Positions 6,689 through 44,057 of a stretch of DNA of 44,150 bases are shown one piece after another. Within the stretch, counting starts at the first letter, position 1, and each line of letters starts with the position of its first letter. A program made the position numbers and the translations under genes. The notes below the pieces were generated by a model. It had not been told where the DNA came from, searched no databases, and worked only from the letters and a program-made list of their open reading frames with translations. The DNA comes from an uncultured Bacilli bacterium (GTDB lineage Bacteria > Bacillota_I > Bacilli_A > RF39 > UBA660), in the NCBI GenBank assembly GCA_944359885.1, contig CALVTC010000004.1, positions 1 through 44,150 of the forward strand, in the 5' to 3' direction.

Positions 6689-7357
6689 CTAAATAATTTC
6701 AAGGTCTTCTTCTAACTTTTCAATTTCCTCATTTTCTTTTTTCTTTTTGGCATTGAAAATCATTTTACGTACTCTTACAACTTCCGTCATTACCAAATAC
6801 AAAATTGGAAGTGCAATACATAAAATCCATCCAAAATAAGTAGATAAAAATTGCCGAACATAACCTAACATAGGAATACGAAATAATACTTTTCCATACA
6901 CATTATCTTCATTAACTAAAACAGCATCACTAACATTATTATTATCACCTTTCGTACGGAATAATAAATCACCATCTTCAGATTTTTCAATACCAACAAT
7001 ACGATGAGTAATTACCTTACCACTATAGTAAGAATCAGTTGCTAAATAACTGATAATATCCCCTTGTTTTAAATCCTCTGGATCACTTCTTGCAATAATA
7101 ATAGCATCTTCTACATTAATTGTTGGAACCATACTAGGACTAACAATAATATAAGCATCAAATAAAGGTGGTTTATCTTCACCAGAGTGGATATTATATA
7201 ATAAATCTACAAAATAAAAAATAAATAAGAAAAAAATAATAACTAACAAAAGAAAGATAACATATAGGACTACCTTAGTAAAAAAATGGAAAAAGAATTG
7301 AATAACTTCCATTACTGAAACAACATCATCATGATTCGTATCAAAATATTGTTTCAT
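6689..7357 (-). CDS. sipW: ER-type signal peptidase I (SipW-like)
   Basis: Type I signal peptidase of the archaeal/eukaryotic (ER) type (222 aa). The nucleophile is Ser75 in VSPSMVPTI. The position that is Lys in ordinary bacterial enzymes is His118 in KVITHRIVGI, which marks the SipW class with a Ser-His dyad; the acidic region is TKGDNNNVSDAVLV. There are membrane segments at about 25-53 and 173-192 and a charged cytoplasmic tail. SipW enzymes process TasA/TapA-type fibre proteins. Three TasA-like paralogues lie immediately upstream, which are the likely substrates. It is transcribed from its own promoter, with rsmA behind it. Confidence 0.92.
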   Translation of the reverse strand: MKQYFDTNHDDVVSVMEVIQFFFHFFTKVVLYVIFLLLVIIFFLFIFYFVDLLYNIHSGEDKPPLFDAYIIVSPSMVPTINVEDAIIIARSDPEDLKQGDIISYLATDSYYSGKVITHRIVGIEKSEDGDLLFRTKGDNNNVSDAVLVNEDNVYGKVLFRIPMLGYVRQFLSTYFGWILCIALPILYLVMTEVVRVRKMIFNAKKKKENEEIEKLEEDLEII

Positions 7358-7377
7358 ATGAGCCCCTCCTATCTATC

Positions 7378-7406
7378 ATCATAAACATGATATCACGAAG
7401 AATCAA
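7378..7406 (-). promoter_or_regulatory. Promoter of sipW-rsmA
   Basis: On the minus strand TTGATT (7401-7406), 17 bp, TATGAT (7378-7383). It lies between the terminator of the upstream TasA-like gene and the sipW ribosome site AGGAGGGG. Confidence 0.7.
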
Positions 7407-7425
7407 AAAAAACTAGGTTTACATC

Positions 7426-7453
7426 GAAAAAAAAGAGGAGTTTACATCCCTCT
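7426..7453 (-). terminator. Terminator of TasA-like gene 3
   Basis: Minus-strand stem AGAGG/CCTCT (7449-7453 and 7434-7438) with a 10-nt loop followed by T7-T8. It separates this gene from sipW. Confidence 0.8.
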
Positions 7454-8078
7454 AAATTACTTTAGCAGTAACATTCAAATGAATTTGAAATTGCCTACTA
7501 ACAGAATCGATAATAGTATTTTCATATACCCAAAACCTTAATCGAAAAGACTCTGTAAATTCTTGACTTTGATTACTAGAATTAGAAAATGATCCAGAAT
7601 ATAAAATCATGCTTCCTTTTTTACTACCTAAAAAGCTAGTACTTTCTAACGGAGTAAATGGTTGTGGATCTTTGGTAATAGGAGTATCTTCATACCCAGA
7701 CTTACCAAACTTTTGTAAATAAATACGAACAGAATCATTATCCAACATTACTTGATTAGTTAAATTTTTTTCTGCAGATATTTCATAATTAATAGTAGTA
7801 TTAGGAGATAAATTTGTTTTGACAGTAAAATCATAAACATTACCTTGACCAGCCAAATTCTTTCCCTCTATATCTGAAATAGGCATAACGTTAGTCATAG
7901 AAATTGAATCATTTCCATTTTCTAAAACCAAAGAAATTGTTCCAGTAGATAATCCATTTGCTTTAGAATCTATAAAATCCATAGTAAGTGCAGCATAAGA
8001 AATACCAACAAAAACAATAATTAAAATTGCAATACTAATAACAGATAAAATTATTTTTTTAGACTCAGATTGAATCAT
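7452..8078 (-). CDS. Secreted TasA/CalY-like protein (third paralogue)
   Basis: Function not established. A 208-aa exported protein with an N-terminal hydrophobic segment (about 8-28) and a plausible signal peptidase site after ISYA (residues 26-29). After the site, the pattern SKANGLSTGTISLVLENGND, then MTNVMPISDIEGKNL, YDFTVKTNLSPNTTINYEI and SFRLRFWVYE, resembles the N-terminal half of TasA (SK.a.fasGtl.l, then L.PGD...dF.f.N). It shares the motifs MP.sD..GK.L, a Y-E-I strand and RLR.W with the two genes upstream at 8254 and 8861. Fibre or surface-matrix component is the likely role, by inference from SipW next door. Confidence 0.75.
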   Translation of the reverse strand: MIQSESKKIILSVISIAILIIVFVGISYAALTMDFIDSKANGLSTGTISLVLENGNDSISMTNVMPISDIEGKNLAGQGNVYDFTVKTNLSPNTTINYEISAEKNLTNQVMLDNDSVRIYLQKFGKSGYEDTPITKDPQPFTPLESTSFLGSKKGSMILYSGSFSNSSNQSQEFTESFRLRFWVYENTIIDSVSRQFQIHLNVTAKVI

Positions 8079-8103
8079 ATAAACCCTCCACTATGATAAA
8101 ATT

Positions 8104-8132
8104 ATCATACCATACAATAAAGAGCGAAGCAA
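8104..8132 (-). promoter_or_regulatory. Promoter of TasA-like gene 3
   Basis: On the minus strand TTGCTT (8127-8132), 17 bp, TATGAT (8104-8109), with a TGG extension before the -10. An inverted repeat TATGATAA-AA-TTATCATA (8092-8109) overlaps the -10 and start region and could be an operator. Confidence 0.6.
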
Positions 8133-8230
8133 ACGCAATATTTCATACTTTACAGTTCATTCTTTTTCATAAATAAGTAATTGAAGCTTTATATACACTC
8201 TCCACATTTTTTCAAATAGATAATTATCCG

Positions 8231-8255
8231 AAAAAAAAGACTTATCTCTAAGTCT
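8231..8255 (-). terminator. Terminator after the first two TasA-like genes
   Basis: Minus-strand stem AGACTTA/TAAGTCT (8249-8255 and 8238-8244), GAGA loop, then T7. It overlaps the stop of the second paralogue. Confidence 0.9.
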
Positions 8256-8850
8256 ATTGTGCTTTACCATATACTTTTACTTCAACTGTATAACTGGCAT
8301 TAGGATCCGCAATAACTGCTCCCTCTCTTATCCATAACCTTAAGCGATAATTATCTACTCTAGAAGAAGATAAAGAAACTTGGCCCAATACCATAGAACC
8401 AGATGGACTTCCTAAATCTGACTTTTTACTAATCGGAGTAAATGCCAAAGGTTCCTCCACTTTAGCATAACTACCACTACTTTGCCTTTCCAAATACACA
8501 ACAATATCATTATCTGAAATGGTAGAACTATCATCTTTAATTAAAGCAATTTCATATTGAATAGCTGTATCATCTTCTACTTCTGAAGAAACAGAAAAAT
8601 CAAAATAACTACCTTCATCTCTTAATTCTTTTCCGCTGTCATTAGACATAGGAGTTAAGTTAGTTAGTGTAAACTGATTTGTTTCTGTTTTATAATTCAT
8701 AGAAACAACACCAGTCTTAACAACTTCTTCTACATTATCACTTTGTCCCCGAAAAAACATCACAAAAGCAAAAGCAACAATTGCAATTAATAAAATGCTA
8801 ATACCTAATACAATAAAAACAAGATTTCTAGTTTTATGACTCTCTTCCAT
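8254..8850 (-). CDS. Membrane-anchored TasA-like protein (second paralogue)
   Basis: Unknown function. A 198-aa protein with one N-terminal membrane segment (about 10-33) and a polar, mostly beta-type extracytoplasmic domain. No clear Ala-x-Ala cleavage site is visible after the segment, so it may stay anchored. Shared family features: TGVVSMNYK near the N-terminus, LTNLTPMSNDSGKELRDEG, FDFSVSSEVEDDTAIQYEIAL, a PLAFTPIS...LGSPSGSMVL block also seen in the third paralogue, and YRLRLWIREGA. It begins 10 nt after the first paralogue and is cotranscribed with it. Confidence 0.7.
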   Translation of the reverse strand: MEESHKTRNLVFIVLGISILLIAIVAFAFVMFFRGQSDNVEEVVKTGVVSMNYKTETNQFTLTNLTPMSNDSGKELRDEGSYFDFSVSSEVEDDTAIQYEIALIKDDSSTISDNDIVVYLERQSSGSYAKVEEPLAFTPISKKSDLGSPSGSMVLGQVSLSSSRVDNYRLRLWIREGAVIADPNASYTVEVKVYGKAQ

Positions 8851-8860
8851 AATATCTCCT

Positions 8861-9445
8861 TTAATCTATCACTTTAACATAAAGTATTCCTTCAAAATTA
8901 CGCGTCTTTGTAGTAATAGGGTAAGTATCTTTTAACCATACACGTAACTTAAAATTTTTTACTTCATCTTTCTTTAATATTCCCGAATAAATCCTTTTGC
9001 TACCTGGATCACTATTCGCAACTTTTAAGCTTTGATAAGTTGGCACACTATTTCCTTGATATCCATCTAATGCTAAGTCTGTTTTTCCATCTGTTAAATA
9101 TACTTTTACATAATCACTAGGAAGATTAGAATTTTCCTCTACTTCTTTTAAATAAATTTCATAGGTAACAGAGTCCACTCTCTCCATGTTAGAAGAAATA
9201 CTAAACTCCATATACCCATATTTTTTTTGATCAGCAGTAAAAGATAACTGTTTACCTACCGCATCAGTAACAGGCATAGAACTATCCACCGTCAAAGAAG
9301 AATTTGGTGAATAAGATACTAATATAGTTGCATTACTGACAGTATCATCACTACGATATAAAAAATAACAAAAAACGAAAAGAAATACTGTCAAAAGAAA
9401 AAAAGCAATAATCATAAATCGTGTATAACTGTATTTTTTCTTCAT
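8861..9445 (-). CDS. Membrane-anchored TasA-like protein (first paralogue)
   Basis: Unknown function. A 194-aa protein with a basic start (MKKKYSYTR), a hydrophobic segment (about 9-30) and an extracytoplasmic domain with the family motifs SSMPVTDAVGKQL, YMEFSISSN, VTYEIYLKEV and FKLRVWLKD. I choose the ATG at 9445, nine bases after AGGGG; a TTG two codons upstream is possible. It is the most diverged of the three copies. It is first in a two-gene unit under its own promoter. Confidence 0.7.
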   Translation of the reverse strand: MKKKYSYTRFMIIAFFLLTVFLFVFCYFLYRSDDTVSNATILVSYSPNSSLTVDSSMPVTDAVGKQLSFTADQKKYGYMEFSISSNMERVDSVTYEIYLKEVEENSNLPSDYVKVYLTDGKTDLALDGYQGNSVPTYQSLKVANSDPGSKRIYSGILKKDEVKNFKLRVWLKDTYPITTKTRNFEGILYVKVID

Positions 9446-9470
9446 AAACAAAAACCCCTATTCTATATTA

Positions 9471-12112: not shown

Positions 12113-12338
12113 AAAAACTATTATAAACATAAGGACGAAATTTCGCGGTACCACCTTACTTTATAATAGAAACTACTATACACTCAAATAGTTAACGCCT
12201 ATCTACGACTACACCTACATATCGATGCAATAGTTCAGAAGCCATACCTTATAAAAAGTTTAGTTCCTTTTTCACCAACCGGAATCTCTTCTCTAACCAA
12301 AATTATAAGGCTCTTCCTCATCACAATCAACTGGGTAG
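12113..12338 (-). promoter_or_regulatory. T-box riboswitch (methionine) of metG
   Basis: On the minus strand the leader carries the T-box core AAGGTGGTACCGCG (12144-12157), whose surrounding sequence forms alternative antiterminator and terminator helices. The terminator stem is CTATTATAAAGTAAGG pairing with CCTTATGTTTATAATAG, followed by T7. Stem I is visible: GAAGAGCCTTATAA pairs with TTATAAGG...GCTTC, bounding a specifier loop with ATG (12243-12245), the methionine codon. AGAGA and GGTTGGTG loop motifs lie in the distal part. Uncharged tRNA-Met should stabilise the antiterminator and switch metG on. Confidence 0.93.
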
Positions 12339-17655: not shown

Positions 17656-17677
17656 AATTATTTCCCGGGAAATAATT
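17656..17677. promoter_or_regulatory. Noc-type palindrome at the end of rsmI
   Basis: A perfect 22-bp palindrome centred at 17666/17667 with core ATTTCCCGGGAAAT, identical in its central 22 bp to the three copies in the array at 24.4-25.1 kb. It overlaps the rsmI stop codon and the rsmI-pth gap. The core is the published Noc binding site. It is too symmetrical, and has no following T-tract, to be a normal terminator. Confidence 0.85.
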
Positions 17678-24282: not shown

Positions 24283-24295
24283 ATAACACCTCAAA

Positions 24296-24374
24296 ATAAA
24301 AGGTGCACATAAAAGGTGACTATTAAGGCTGCTACTTCCCAGTCCTGACCTGTTTCTAGTACTTTTATTGCACC
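24296..24374 (-). ncRNA. ffs: Signal recognition particle RNA (small bacterial type)
   Basis: On the minus strand, GGTGCA (5' end at 24374) pairs with TGCACC near 24302 and the helix continues ATAAAAG/CTTTTAT. The hairpin holds the conserved domain IV: GGTCAGGACTGGGAAGTAGC and AGCC, i.e. the GUCAGG / GGAA tetraloop / AGCAGCC signature bound by Ffh. A TTTTATTTT tract ends it. Size is about 75-80 nt, the Alu-less small type, unlike the 270-nt Bacillus scRNA. It ends only about 12 nt before the tadA ribosome site. Confidence 0.9.
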
Positions 24375-24380
24375 AAAAAT

Positions 24381-24455: not shown

Positions 24456-24479
24456 AAATTATTTCCCGGGAAATAATTT
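24456..24479. promoter_or_regulatory. Noc-type binding palindrome 1
   Basis: Perfect 24-bp palindrome centred at 24467/24468, core ATTTCCCGGGAAAT, flanked by AAATT/AATTT. Confidence 0.88.
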
Positions 24480-24523: not shown

Positions 24524-24539
24524 TGTTTCACGTGGAACA
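24524..24539. promoter_or_regulatory. parS site 1
   Basis: TGTTTCACGTGGAACA: one mismatch from perfect symmetry; matches the bacterial ParB/Spo0J site TGTTNCACGTGAAACA closely. Confidence 0.92.
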
Positions 24540-24640: not shown

Positions 24641-24664
24641 AAATTATTTCCCGGGAAATAATTT
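24641..24664. promoter_or_regulatory. Noc-type binding palindrome 2
   Basis: Identical 24-bp palindrome to copy 1, centred at 24652/24653, 185 bp from it. Confidence 0.88.
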
Positions 24665-24712: not shown

Positions 24713-24728
24713 TGTTCCACGTGGAACA
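24713..24728. promoter_or_regulatory. parS site 2
   Basis: TGTTCCACGTGGAACA, a perfect 16-bp palindrome. Confidence 0.92.
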
Positions 24729-24899: not shown

Positions 24900-24915
24900 T
24901 GTTCCACGTGAAACA
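24900..24915. promoter_or_regulatory. parS site 3
   Basis: TGTTCCACGTGAAACA, identical to a common Bacillus parS form. Confidence 0.93.
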
Positions 24916-25019: not shown

Positions 25020-25043
25020 AAATTATTTCCCGGGAAATAATTT
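25020..25043. promoter_or_regulatory. Noc-type binding palindrome 3
   Basis: Identical 24-bp palindrome centred at 25031/25032. A degenerate form with one base missing, ATTTCTGGGAAAT, lies at 25339-25351. Confidence 0.88.
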
Positions 25044-25088: not shown

Positions 25089-25104
25089 TGTTCCACGTGG
25101 AACG
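25089..25104. promoter_or_regulatory. parS site 4
   Basis: TGTTCCACGTGGAACG, one mismatch at the last base. A decayed copy (TTTCCCACGAAACAT) follows near 25282-25296, about one unit on. Confidence 0.88.
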
Positions 25105-37182: not shown

Positions 37183-38529
37183 ATGCATATTGGCATAATT
37201 CAAATAAAAAACAAAAAAATATATATAGATAAAAAAGAAAATGAAATTATCTCTTATTATTATAAAGAAAGAAAAAAACAGAATCTATCGATTCAAACAC
37301 TCGCCATTCTTTTAAAAAAATATTTCTTTAATCGAAAAAATGAAGTTTATTTGTACAATCAAGACGGATATAAAGTTTATAAGGATAAAGAAACTGGTCA
37401 TAAACACTTTTATAAAAATAATCGCCAAGACTATAAAAAGTTCTTTAAAGAAAATGGAATCAGCGCTATTATGTATGCCTCATCTAGTAAAAAAGATATC
37501 TATATAGCTTGTGCTCTTATAGTAGCTGGTCAAGCTATCATGTACATATCAGACTTTATACCAGATAAACTAAATGAACAGCTAGAAAATAATTCTCAAG
37601 ATCAAGATTCAGAAAAAGAGATAGACTTTATAGAAGAAAACAATACACTTGTTGCGATAGATACAGATTACATAATAAACTCTATAAGAAACTCCCCATA
37701 TTTAACAACTACAGCCAAAAAGAGACTAATTAACACTGAATTTTTTCAAAAACTTAGTAATATTCCTGTAACAGAAGATCGTATGATGTCACTATCAGAA
37801 AAGCTTACAGATATAGAAATAAAGGAATTTGAAGAAGACCAAGAACAAGAAAATTCCCGAAGAGAAAAAAAAGACCTTGCTAGAATTATTGGTTATTATA
37901 ATGCACTAACACCTAATATTATTTATGTTGATACTTTGGATAATTGGGATACCATCAACCATGAATTTATACACCTACTTCAAGATGATAATCAATACTA
38001 CTATATCAGAGAAGCTTTTGCCGAATTATTATGTGAAGAATATTATGGGTATCCAGTAGATTCTTATCAACCACAAGTAACAAGAATAAAAGTATTAAGA
38101 GAGATAATTGGTGAACAACCTATCTGGGAATTAAACTTCAGTGGATCAACAAAATCCTTTGAAAATATCCTAAAAGATTATTTATCTACGGAAGAGGCGA
38201 CAGAATTATTAGAATTATTTCAAACACCACCATCTTCTTATACTAATTCTCAACAAGAACAAATAAATAGTCAAATTGATGAATTACTATCTCAACTATA
38301 TTATAATATGTATAATCGACCAATAGAAAGTAATACAACTATAAATCAGATATATGACGAATATTCTTTTGGAATGTGGATTCCGATTGAACCAGATGTG
38401 GAAGATTATAATACGATAGATAGTAGTAAAGAAGTGATAGGAACAAATAAATATATTAAACGTTTAAATAATACGGAAAATGAAATGATGATATCAGATT
38501 CAATAAAGCAAAAAGTATACAAAAAATAA
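37183..38529 (+). CDS. Putative HExxH zinc metallopeptidase, membrane-anchored, unknown family
   Basis: Not recognised as any named gene. A 448-aa protein: basic, Tyr/Lys-rich N-terminal region (1-105) with DGYKVYKDKETGHKHFYK; one hydrophobic segment (about 106-126, IYIACALIVAGQAIMYISDF); acidic linker; then a domain with H260-E261-F-I-H264 (TINHEFIHLLQ) followed by IREAFAELLCEEYY, where Glu277 or Glu281 could be the third zinc ligand as in gluzincins with a HExxH...EGxAE layout. The C-terminal 150 residues are polar. It has its own promoter and terminator, between jag and mnmE, which are normally adjacent. Cleavage activity is inference only. Confidence 0.7.
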   Translation: MHIGIIQIKNKKIYIDKKENEIISYYYKERKKQNLSIQTLAILLKKYFFNRKNEVYLYNQDGYKVYKDKETGHKHFYKNNRQDYKKFFKENGISAIMYASSSKKDIYIACALIVAGQAIMYISDFIPDKLNEQLENNSQDQDSEKEIDFIEENNTLVAIDTDYIINSIRNSPYLTTTAKKRLINTEFFQKLSNIPVTEDRMMSLSEKLTDIEIKEFEEDQEQENSRREKKDLARIIGYYNALTPNIIYVDTLDNWDTINHEFIHLLQDDNQYYYIREAFAELLCEEYYGYPVDSYQPQVTRIKVLREIIGEQPIWELNFSGSTKSFENILKDYLSTEEATELLELFQTPPSSYTNSQQEQINSQIDELLSQLYYNMYNRPIESNTTINQIYDEYSFGMWIPIEPDVEDYNTIDSSKEVIGTNKYIKRLNNTENEMMISDSIKQKVYKK

Positions 38530-42587: not shown

Positions 42588-44057
42588 ATGCAAGAGCAAA
42601 ACAAAGACGAAATTGTTTATCTATATTTAGATGACATTATACCTAATAGATTTCAACCGCGTGAAATATTTGATGAAAAAGCATTAAAAGAACTTGCAAT
42701 ATCTATTAAAGAACATGGTGTGATACAGCCAATTATAGTTCGAAATGTAAATGGAAAATATGAAATCATTGCTGGAGAAAGAAGATATAAAGCATCTGCT
42801 ATGGCCGGATTAACAAAAATACCAGCAATTATTAGAAACCTAGATGATAAAGAAAGTTCTAAAGTTGCATTATTAGAAAATCTACAAAGAAGAAATTTAA
42901 ATCCAATAGAAGAAGCAAGAACGTATCAAAAAATATTAGAATTAGATCAGATGACGCAAGAAGAATTAGCAAAAACAATGGGAAAAAGTCAATCTGCTGT
43001 TGCAAACAAAATAAGATTATTAGGATTATGCGATGAAGTACAAGATGCCCTACTAAAAGAGCAAATTTCTGAACGTCATGCCAGAACATTATTAAATATC
43101 CCTGATAAGAAAAAACAAAAAGAAATGTTGAAAAAAGTAATAAATGAAAGAATGACAGTTCGTCAATTAGAAGAAGAAATACGAAAATTGTATCCAAAAG
43201 AAGAGAAAGGAGAGCCTATGAATAACGCTGCAATGACTACATCATCAACACCAATTACTGCAACAGCCTTTGTAAATAATAATCCGTTAATGCCAACTGC
43301 AGAATTACCAGAAGATAATTCAAATTATGGAAAAATAACAATAGCTCCTCCTACAGACTCTAATGAAGATCATCAGCCAAGATTTATTAACTACGGAGAA
43401 ATCAAAGATGAGGATGATGATGAAGATCCAGTAGTAGGAGGAGTAAACCCAACTAGTACTCAAACATCTTTAAATATTTCTGATATCAAAAAAAATGCAG
43501 TAGATATTAATTCACCCCAAGCAAAACCTACAGCTGACTTAGACTCCCTTCTAAATATAACATCAGCACCAATTCCAACTGATGCTTCATCATCAGAAGA
43601 GCATTATAGATTCATAACGCCAGCAGAAGAAATAGTAAAAACAGATGCCAGCAAAGCTTCGAAAGATAAAACGGAAGATTATTTTAAAACACCAGACTTA
43701 ATTCCAGTAGAATTACCAAACATCGTACAAACAAAAAATACGAACTCTGTACCATTAGAAGAAATAGAAGCAAAAACGAAACCAGCAATGAATCATAATC
43801 AAGAAAGACAATCAAGTATCAAAACAGAACAGCCTATAATAAATCATACAAATATAAATGCTAATTTATTTGGAGAAGCTCAAGAACCAAAAGTAAATCA
43901 AAAGAAAAACGAAACATTCACAGTTCAAAAATCTATCGATATGATTAGAAACTTAGTAGCAGAATTAAATCGTCATGGAGTAAAAGCAGACTTAGATGAA
44001 ATGAACTTCTCAAAATCTTACCAGATTATAATAAAATTAGATAAAACCGCAGAGTAG
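42588..44057 (+). CDS. noc: Noc-like ParB-family nucleoid occlusion/partition protein with long linker
   Basis: ParB/Noc CTPase family. Core in residues 1-205: NRFQPREIF, CTP-binding GERRYKAS (64-70 region) and ENLQRRNLNPIEEA (97-110), and a helix-turn-helix (GKSQSAVANKIRLLGL...SERHARTLL). Gln135, Lys141 and Arg163 equal the Noc-specific Gln173, Lys179 and Arg201 of B. subtilis; the fourth (Lys184) is Gly146. So it should read ATTTCCCGGGAAAT rather than parS. Position behind rsmG is that of noc. Oddities: 489 aa against about 283; no N-terminal amphipathic membrane helix; residues about 205-435 are low-complexity, acidic, Pro/Thr/Ser/Asn-rich; and the last 50 residues form a separate folded-looking domain (SIDMIRNLVAELNRHGVKAD). 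Confidence 0.88.
   Translation: MQEQNKDEIVYLYLDDIIPNRFQPREIFDEKALKELAISIKEHGVIQPIIVRNVNGKYEIIAGERRYKASAMAGLTKIPAIIRNLDDKESSKVALLENLQRRNLNPIEEARTYQKILELDQMTQEELAKTMGKSQSAVANKIRLLGLCDEVQDALLKEQISERHARTLLNIPDKKKQKEMLKKVINERMTVRQLEEEIRKLYPKEEKGEPMNNAAMTTSSTPITATAFVNNNPLMPTAELPEDNSNYGKITIAPPTDSNEDHQPRFINYGEIKDEDDDEDPVVGGVNPTSTQTSLNISDIKKNAVDINSPQAKPTADLDSLLNITSAPIPTDASSSEEHYRFITPAEEIVKTDASKASKDKTEDYFKTPDLIPVELPNIVQTKNTNSVPLEEIEAKTKPAMNHNQERQSSIKTEQPIINHTNINANLFGEAQEPKVNQKKNETFTVQKSIDMIRNLVAELNRHGVKADLDEMNFSKSYQIIIKLDKTAE

Follow-up and report, generated by a model that had tools for sequence, protein, structure and literature searches.

Noc has been described elsewhere as a CTP-dependent clamp that loads at Noc-binding sites (NBS), spreads along the DNA and binds the membrane through a helix (PMC8429893). 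In Bacillus subtilis Noc this N-terminal amphipathic helix is needed for function, and Adams et al. predicted such a helix in every Noc homologue that they examined (PMC4331003). B. subtilis NBS are spread widely over the chromosome except near ter (PMC7383237). For Staphylococcus aureus Noc, 41 loci were obtained by ChIP, and only one of them is more than 700 kb from the origin (PMC5540599). Chromosomal ParB (Spo0J) has a CTPase domain, an HTH fold and a palindrome near the origin for loading, as is also the case for the protein described here; the linker of chromosomal ParB is described as invariably about 20 residues long, with lysines over-represented (PMC8367383). Here we analyse a Noc-type gene at the end of a 44,150-nucleotide contig from an uncultured Bacilli bacterium (this whole stretch of DNA is referred to as the window) and compare it with its relatives.

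The noc gene and the folded domains of its product

The open reading frame at 42588-44057 of the plus strand, on which all features of the protein given below are also encoded, starts with an ATG preceded by AGAGAGG and codes for 489 residues beginning with MQEQNKDEIVYL. A first-pass annotation had placed a Noc-like protein here, and both the coordinates and the assignment to the Noc clade of the ParB/Noc family are confirmed by profile matches and by a phylogenetic tree. The gene is preceded by mnmE, mnmG and rsmG and the contig stops after it, and parA, parB and an MscS-like gene open another contig of the same genome; in better-assembled relatives noc, parA and parB are consecutive. B. subtilis noc likewise adjoins rsmG and parAB. 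Only two TIGR00180 matches, noc and parB, were found in the host genome, which is 73% complete. Together with the parA/parB contig, this points to a single noc beside a separate ParABS system; a second complete noc gene, which the first-pass annotation had seen as speaking against its reading, was not found in this genome, only a canonical ParB.

Among the relatives of this protein that carry a name are Candidatus Faecimonas and Candidatus Onthousia, both uncultured Bacilli. We take these to belong to the GTDB order RF39, family UBA660, and RF39, whose members are uncultured gut bacteria, is probably the order of our organism; the 146 genomes drawn from this order are all of one family. In the collection of papers searched, none joined RF39 with nucleoid occlusion. 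Other features of the window include a 448-aa protein with a HEFIH motif, metallopeptidase-like, between jag and mnmE (37183-38529), a SipW-like signal peptidase adjoining three small exported TasA/camelysin-like proteins, identified by eye (6689-9451), and a T-box leader ahead of metG (12128-12330, Rfam).

Pfam recognises ParB_N at residues 10-100, the N-terminal CTP-binding domain (42615-42887), and HTH_ParB at residues 103-201, the DNA-binding domain (42894-43190). The AlphaFold2 model, built with 70 sequences, is well folded over residues 4-205 and in the C-terminal domain, and its top Foldseek match is Geobacillus Noc (7nfu, 52% identity); the nearest solved proteins are this one and B. 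subtilis Noc. The NCBIfam Noc profile (TIGR04285) gives 285 bits over residues 9-216, under the curated cut-off of 315, and the match stops at residue 216, where a long linker starts; this cut-off is reached in none of the 146 genomes of the order. In a tree of the N-terminal and DNA-binding domains, which leaves the branching order among Noc lineages unsettled, all ParBs lie beyond a branch with 100/99 support and the Nocs of the order form one group (99/98). The GERR box and residues E97, N98, Q100 and R101 of the ENLQR box are invariant among 70 relatives. Since these are CTP-box residues, the protein likely clamps DNA in a CTP-dependent manner.

Positions 173, 179, 184 and 201 (Caulobacter numbering) correspond to Q135, K141, G146 and R163, so that three of the four residues are of the Noc type, as the first-pass annotation had noted. 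Q135 (42990-42992) and R163 (43074-43076) are specificity positions and K141 (43008-43010) is permissive (PMC7383237). The missing fourth residue is no objection, since according to Jalal et al. a single lysine, at either 179 or 184, suffices when combined with Q173 and R201 (PMC7383237). In Nocs of other families position 184 varies among N, Q, K and G, and the host genome's own ParB has R, M, N and G at the four positions, with R and G at the two that read parS. The canonical ParB features R173, G201 and the N-terminal ParA-binding motif LG[KR]G are all absent from this Noc.

The C-terminal domain (43911-44045) consists of a helix at residues 446-462 and strands at 467-473 and 478-484. It aligns with canonical Noc with an hhalign probability of 93.8 and an E-value of 1.6e-7 (one comparison), as compared to a probability of 0.9 against ParB (two ParB sequences only). 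These last 45 or so residues had been read at first as a distinct domain; they are in fact an ordinary Noc C-terminal domain. Mis-assignment of a ParB was considered and is ruled out by the tree and by the separate canonical ParB in the genome. In specificity residues, C-terminal domain and tree position the protein is of the Noc type, unlike Spo0J, and as far as sequence comparison goes it is a true Noc-clade protein standing beside a separate ParA/ParB pair. It shares with B. subtilis Noc the clade, the CTP boxes, the specificity residues, the NBS sequence and the type of C-terminal domain.

The N-terminus and the acidic linker

What B. subtilis Noc has and this protein lacks is the N-terminal amphipathic helix, whose absence the first-pass annotation had already pointed out. 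The noc frame is open for just 11 codons upstream of the ATG and contains no earlier start; this leaves no room for a helix, and a wrongly chosen start hiding one is thereby ruled out. Throughout the order the N-terminus is similar: the QPR motif lies 20-28 residues after the start in all 80 proteins (79 relatives and this Noc), and the first 11 residues are net negative in 75 of the 80. Relocation of the helix into the linker was also considered and rejected, as no basic amphipathic stretch stands out there and the best moments fall on the helix of the C-terminal domain. We infer that direct membrane binding may have been lost by this Noc.

The Nocs of three other Bacilli families (f9, f13 and f19; L017, L019, L020, L021 and L146-L150) also lack the helix and, as here, start directly at the CTPase domain, but their linkers are ordinary and short. 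It follows that the N-terminal helix does not define the Noc clade, that its loss is not in itself the novelty, and that a long linker is not a necessary substitute for it; the tie between helix loss and linker gain implied by the first-pass annotation is weakened. In a further family, f17, the Noc L145 of genome G194 starts with MALFNRKDK and has a long C-terminal extension (open frame of 681 aa) ending in GFWNLFK, possibly a C-terminal membrane anchor.

About 235 residues lie between the DNA-binding and C-terminal domains of our Noc, in agreement with the disordered linker of 230 residues proposed at first: AlphaFold2 pLDDT is mostly 40-60 over residues 206-441, and the disordered acidic linker itself spans residues 209-441 (43212-43910). 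No Pfam match was obtained in it. By a measure applied alike to all proteins, every one of the 86 proteins of the order has a linker of 148-346 aa with a net charge of -11 to -62; ten Nocs from elsewhere in the Bacilli gave 4-18 aa and a charge of +1 to +4. With respect to B. subtilis Noc, the linker here is many times longer and acidic. Noc-type open frames ranged from 335 to 764 aa among the matches listed for the order.

Within this linker, whose length and sequence otherwise vary among relatives, seven short motifs recur in fixed order. They are FVNxxPLxPT (motif 1, 43269-43298), NYGxIxIAPP (motif 2, 43323-43352), RFINYGEI (motif 3, 43380-43403), NIxxIKxNAxDI (motif 4, 43473-43508), ADLDSLLN (motif 5, 43533-43556), FITPAEEIVK (motif 6, 43611-43640) and DYFxTPDLxxVxxP (motif 7, 43677-43718); motifs 4 and 6 are predicted to form short helices, the former with a bump in pLDDT. 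Conserved columns include L322 (67 of 70) and F366 (66 of 70). Of 85 linkers, 64 contain DYF, 61 LDxLL and 48 YGx[IL], for shuffled means of 0.8, 0.3 and 1.4, respectively; these counts are inflated by shared ancestry, since the relatives are 37-81% identical overall and the shuffles ignore kinship. The single-chain AlphaFold2 model docks none of the motifs with confidence. Motifs kept in order along a charged and disordered arm resemble docking sites, and the earlier suggestion that the linker makes contacts gains support from them.

NBS among the parS sites of the origin region

Four exact copies of the NBS ATTTCCCGGGAAAT are present in the window, and all four contain the 16-bp consensus TATTTCCCGGGAAATA of Jalal et al.; they are the sole exact copies in the host genome (73% complete). 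When up to 3 mismatches were allowed, 8 matches were found; 2.1 were expected, and a count of 8 was not attained in any of 100 shuffles. This confirms the palindromes that the first-pass annotation had matched to the Noc-type specificity. One NBS lies between rsmI and pth (17660-17673), in the same place as in three relatives (G010, G004 and G009). The other three (24461-24474, 24646-24659 and 25025-25038) are interleaved with four parS sites as a tandem array between tadA and gyrA: TGTTTCACGTGGAACA at 24524-24539, TGTTCCACGTGGAACA at 24713-24728, TGTTCCACGTGAAACA at 24900-24915 and TGTTCCACGTGGAACG at 25089-25104, with a parS spacing of 187-189 bp. dnaA has the array on one side and noc on the other, each within about 10 kb. 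Beside the array, two pairs of repeats about 185 bp apart were observed (25333-25365/25517-25549 and 25406-25459/25591-25644), one of which holds the DnaA-box-like TTTTCCACA, and a small SRP RNA sits beside tadA (24294-24379, Rfam).

This arrangement, which the first-pass annotation had overlooked, recurs in the order. In 23 genomes we counted by hand from the search listings 43 exact NBS, namely the four of the window and 39 from 22 further genomes; 39 of the 43 are within 10 kb of a parS, and in many relatives the distance between NBS and parS is only about 2-54 bp. As for the remaining four, one is 17 kb from a parS on the same contig, one is 53 kb away, and two are on contigs without parS, in the same origin gene block (the parB neighbourhood and rsmI-pth). 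In G160, which is assembled as a single 1.3-Mb contig, a stretch of 6.4 kb contains four NBS, three of them exact and one near-exact, mixed with parS and 17-23 kb from noc; the rest of this genome contains only one 2-mismatch NBS, as compared to two for the reversed control. Degenerate NBS (up to 2 mismatches) outside the origin region showed no clear excess over reversed-pattern controls in the best-assembled genomes. Considering that the Bacillus site is a degenerate consensus, weaker Noc sites may exist elsewhere. Some relatives also have a single NBS near noc or parB (L125 at 7285, L132 at 3958, L136 at 15495 and G166 contig C2 at 217946), placed in rsmG or just upstream of noc, which might serve for autoregulation or as an extra loading site.

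NBS-like sites are dispersed in the complete genomes of other families, in keeping with the descriptions of B. subtilis and, with a narrower spread, of S. aureus (PMC7383237, PMC5540599). B. subtilis NBS are widespread, whereas those here are confined to the origin region. S. aureus Noc resembles ours in NBS core, in origin-biased sites and in a possible link with replication control, but the sites here, which are sequence matches, amount to a handful within tens of kb and are interleaved with parS. Confinement of NBS may not be unique to the order, since in f17 (G194) NBS are also found within about 40 kb of noc. On present sequences, two features are unusual here, the long, acidic, motif-bearing linker and the origin-confined NBS, and each of them is found throughout the order.

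Possible roles of a Noc with origin-confined sites

The explanation that we favour, and consider somewhat probable, is that this protein is an origin-specialised Noc clamp without membrane binding of its own, whose linker motifs recruit partners. It builds on the clade, domain layout, specificity residues, missing helix, linker conservation and site confinement, as read from the sequences, and adds to them CTP clamping, DNA sharing with ParB, loss of membrane binding and a recruiting role. The clamp would load at the few NBS lying among the parS sites; with the two kinds of site so mixed, loading of both Noc and ParB clamps would take place within the same few kilobases, and the two may share one centromere patch. 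With direct membrane binding presumably lost, the seven linker motifs would be presented in many copies by a dense array of clamps and could recruit partner proteins at the origin; the control of division or of replication would in this way be coupled to where the origin lies. A parallel for a Noc-ParB pair acting locally at the origin exists in B. subtilis, where Spo0J and Noc jointly keep Z rings from forming too soon at midcell if early replication is blocked (PMC6852036).

A Noc without the helix has no known way of touching the membrane. If a partner provided the contact, ordinary nucleoid occlusion would be maintained, and this counts against our proposal. Such occlusion, with a membrane partner binding the linker motifs and only the origin region protected, is in our judgement unlikely, although the Noc clade, specificity and C-terminal domain are retained, a membrane or divisome protein could find its binding site in the conserved motifs, and a foreign amphipathic helix restores B. 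subtilis Noc function, which indicates that the mode of tethering can change (PMC4331003). NBS within tens of kb of the origin would leave most of the nucleoid unmarked, and the linker has no conspicuous basic amphipathic stretch. The proximity of the array and of noc to dnaA could rather suggest an action of the clamp at the origin, and of its linker, on DnaA or on the complex that initiates replication, and S. aureus Noc restrains replication initiation (PMC5540599). We regard this as quite improbable, since the array, in the tadA-gyrA interval, is some 8-10 kb away from dnaA and outside the dnaA intergenic regions.

The linker might also have a purely geometric function. ParB holds DNA between its DNA-binding and C-terminal domains, in a space set by the linker of about 20 aa (PMC8367383), and a long linker might widen the clamp to let it slide past ParB or other obstacles, the motifs folding back on the clamp. 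The short distances between NBS and parS in many relatives would fit this, but a passive spacer has no need of seven ordered motifs and the single-chain model shows no confident docking of them, so that we give this explanation very little credit. Least of all do we expect a local transcription regulator acting from promoter-near NBS, like KorB or VirB: the site between rsmI and pth (17660) and those about 0.1-0.4 kb upstream of noc in some relatives would suit it, but many NBS sit with parS in the tadA-gyrA array, not at obvious promoters, and several lie inside genes (mfd, dnaX and rsmG).

If recruitment by an origin-specialised clamp is the right explanation, its wider meaning, which we put forward tentatively, may be that Noc, which elsewhere binds the membrane and blocks division from sites all over the chromosome, has been remade throughout this order as a second protein of the centromere. 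NBS and parS would together form a composite centromere on which Noc clamps sit next to ParB clamps, and the disordered arm with its motifs would turn the origin into a platform to which proteins of division or replication are recruited. Three general rules are broken together in this one order: the membrane helix, the widespread NBS and the short, lysine-rich linker, the last of which (about 20 residues) was stated for chromosomal ParB. The physical model of occlusion requires DNA binding and membrane binding only, whereas Pang et al. argued that an extra divisome partner is also needed (PMC5540599). A helixless Noc carrying conserved motifs that look like docking sites would be a natural place to seek such a partner.
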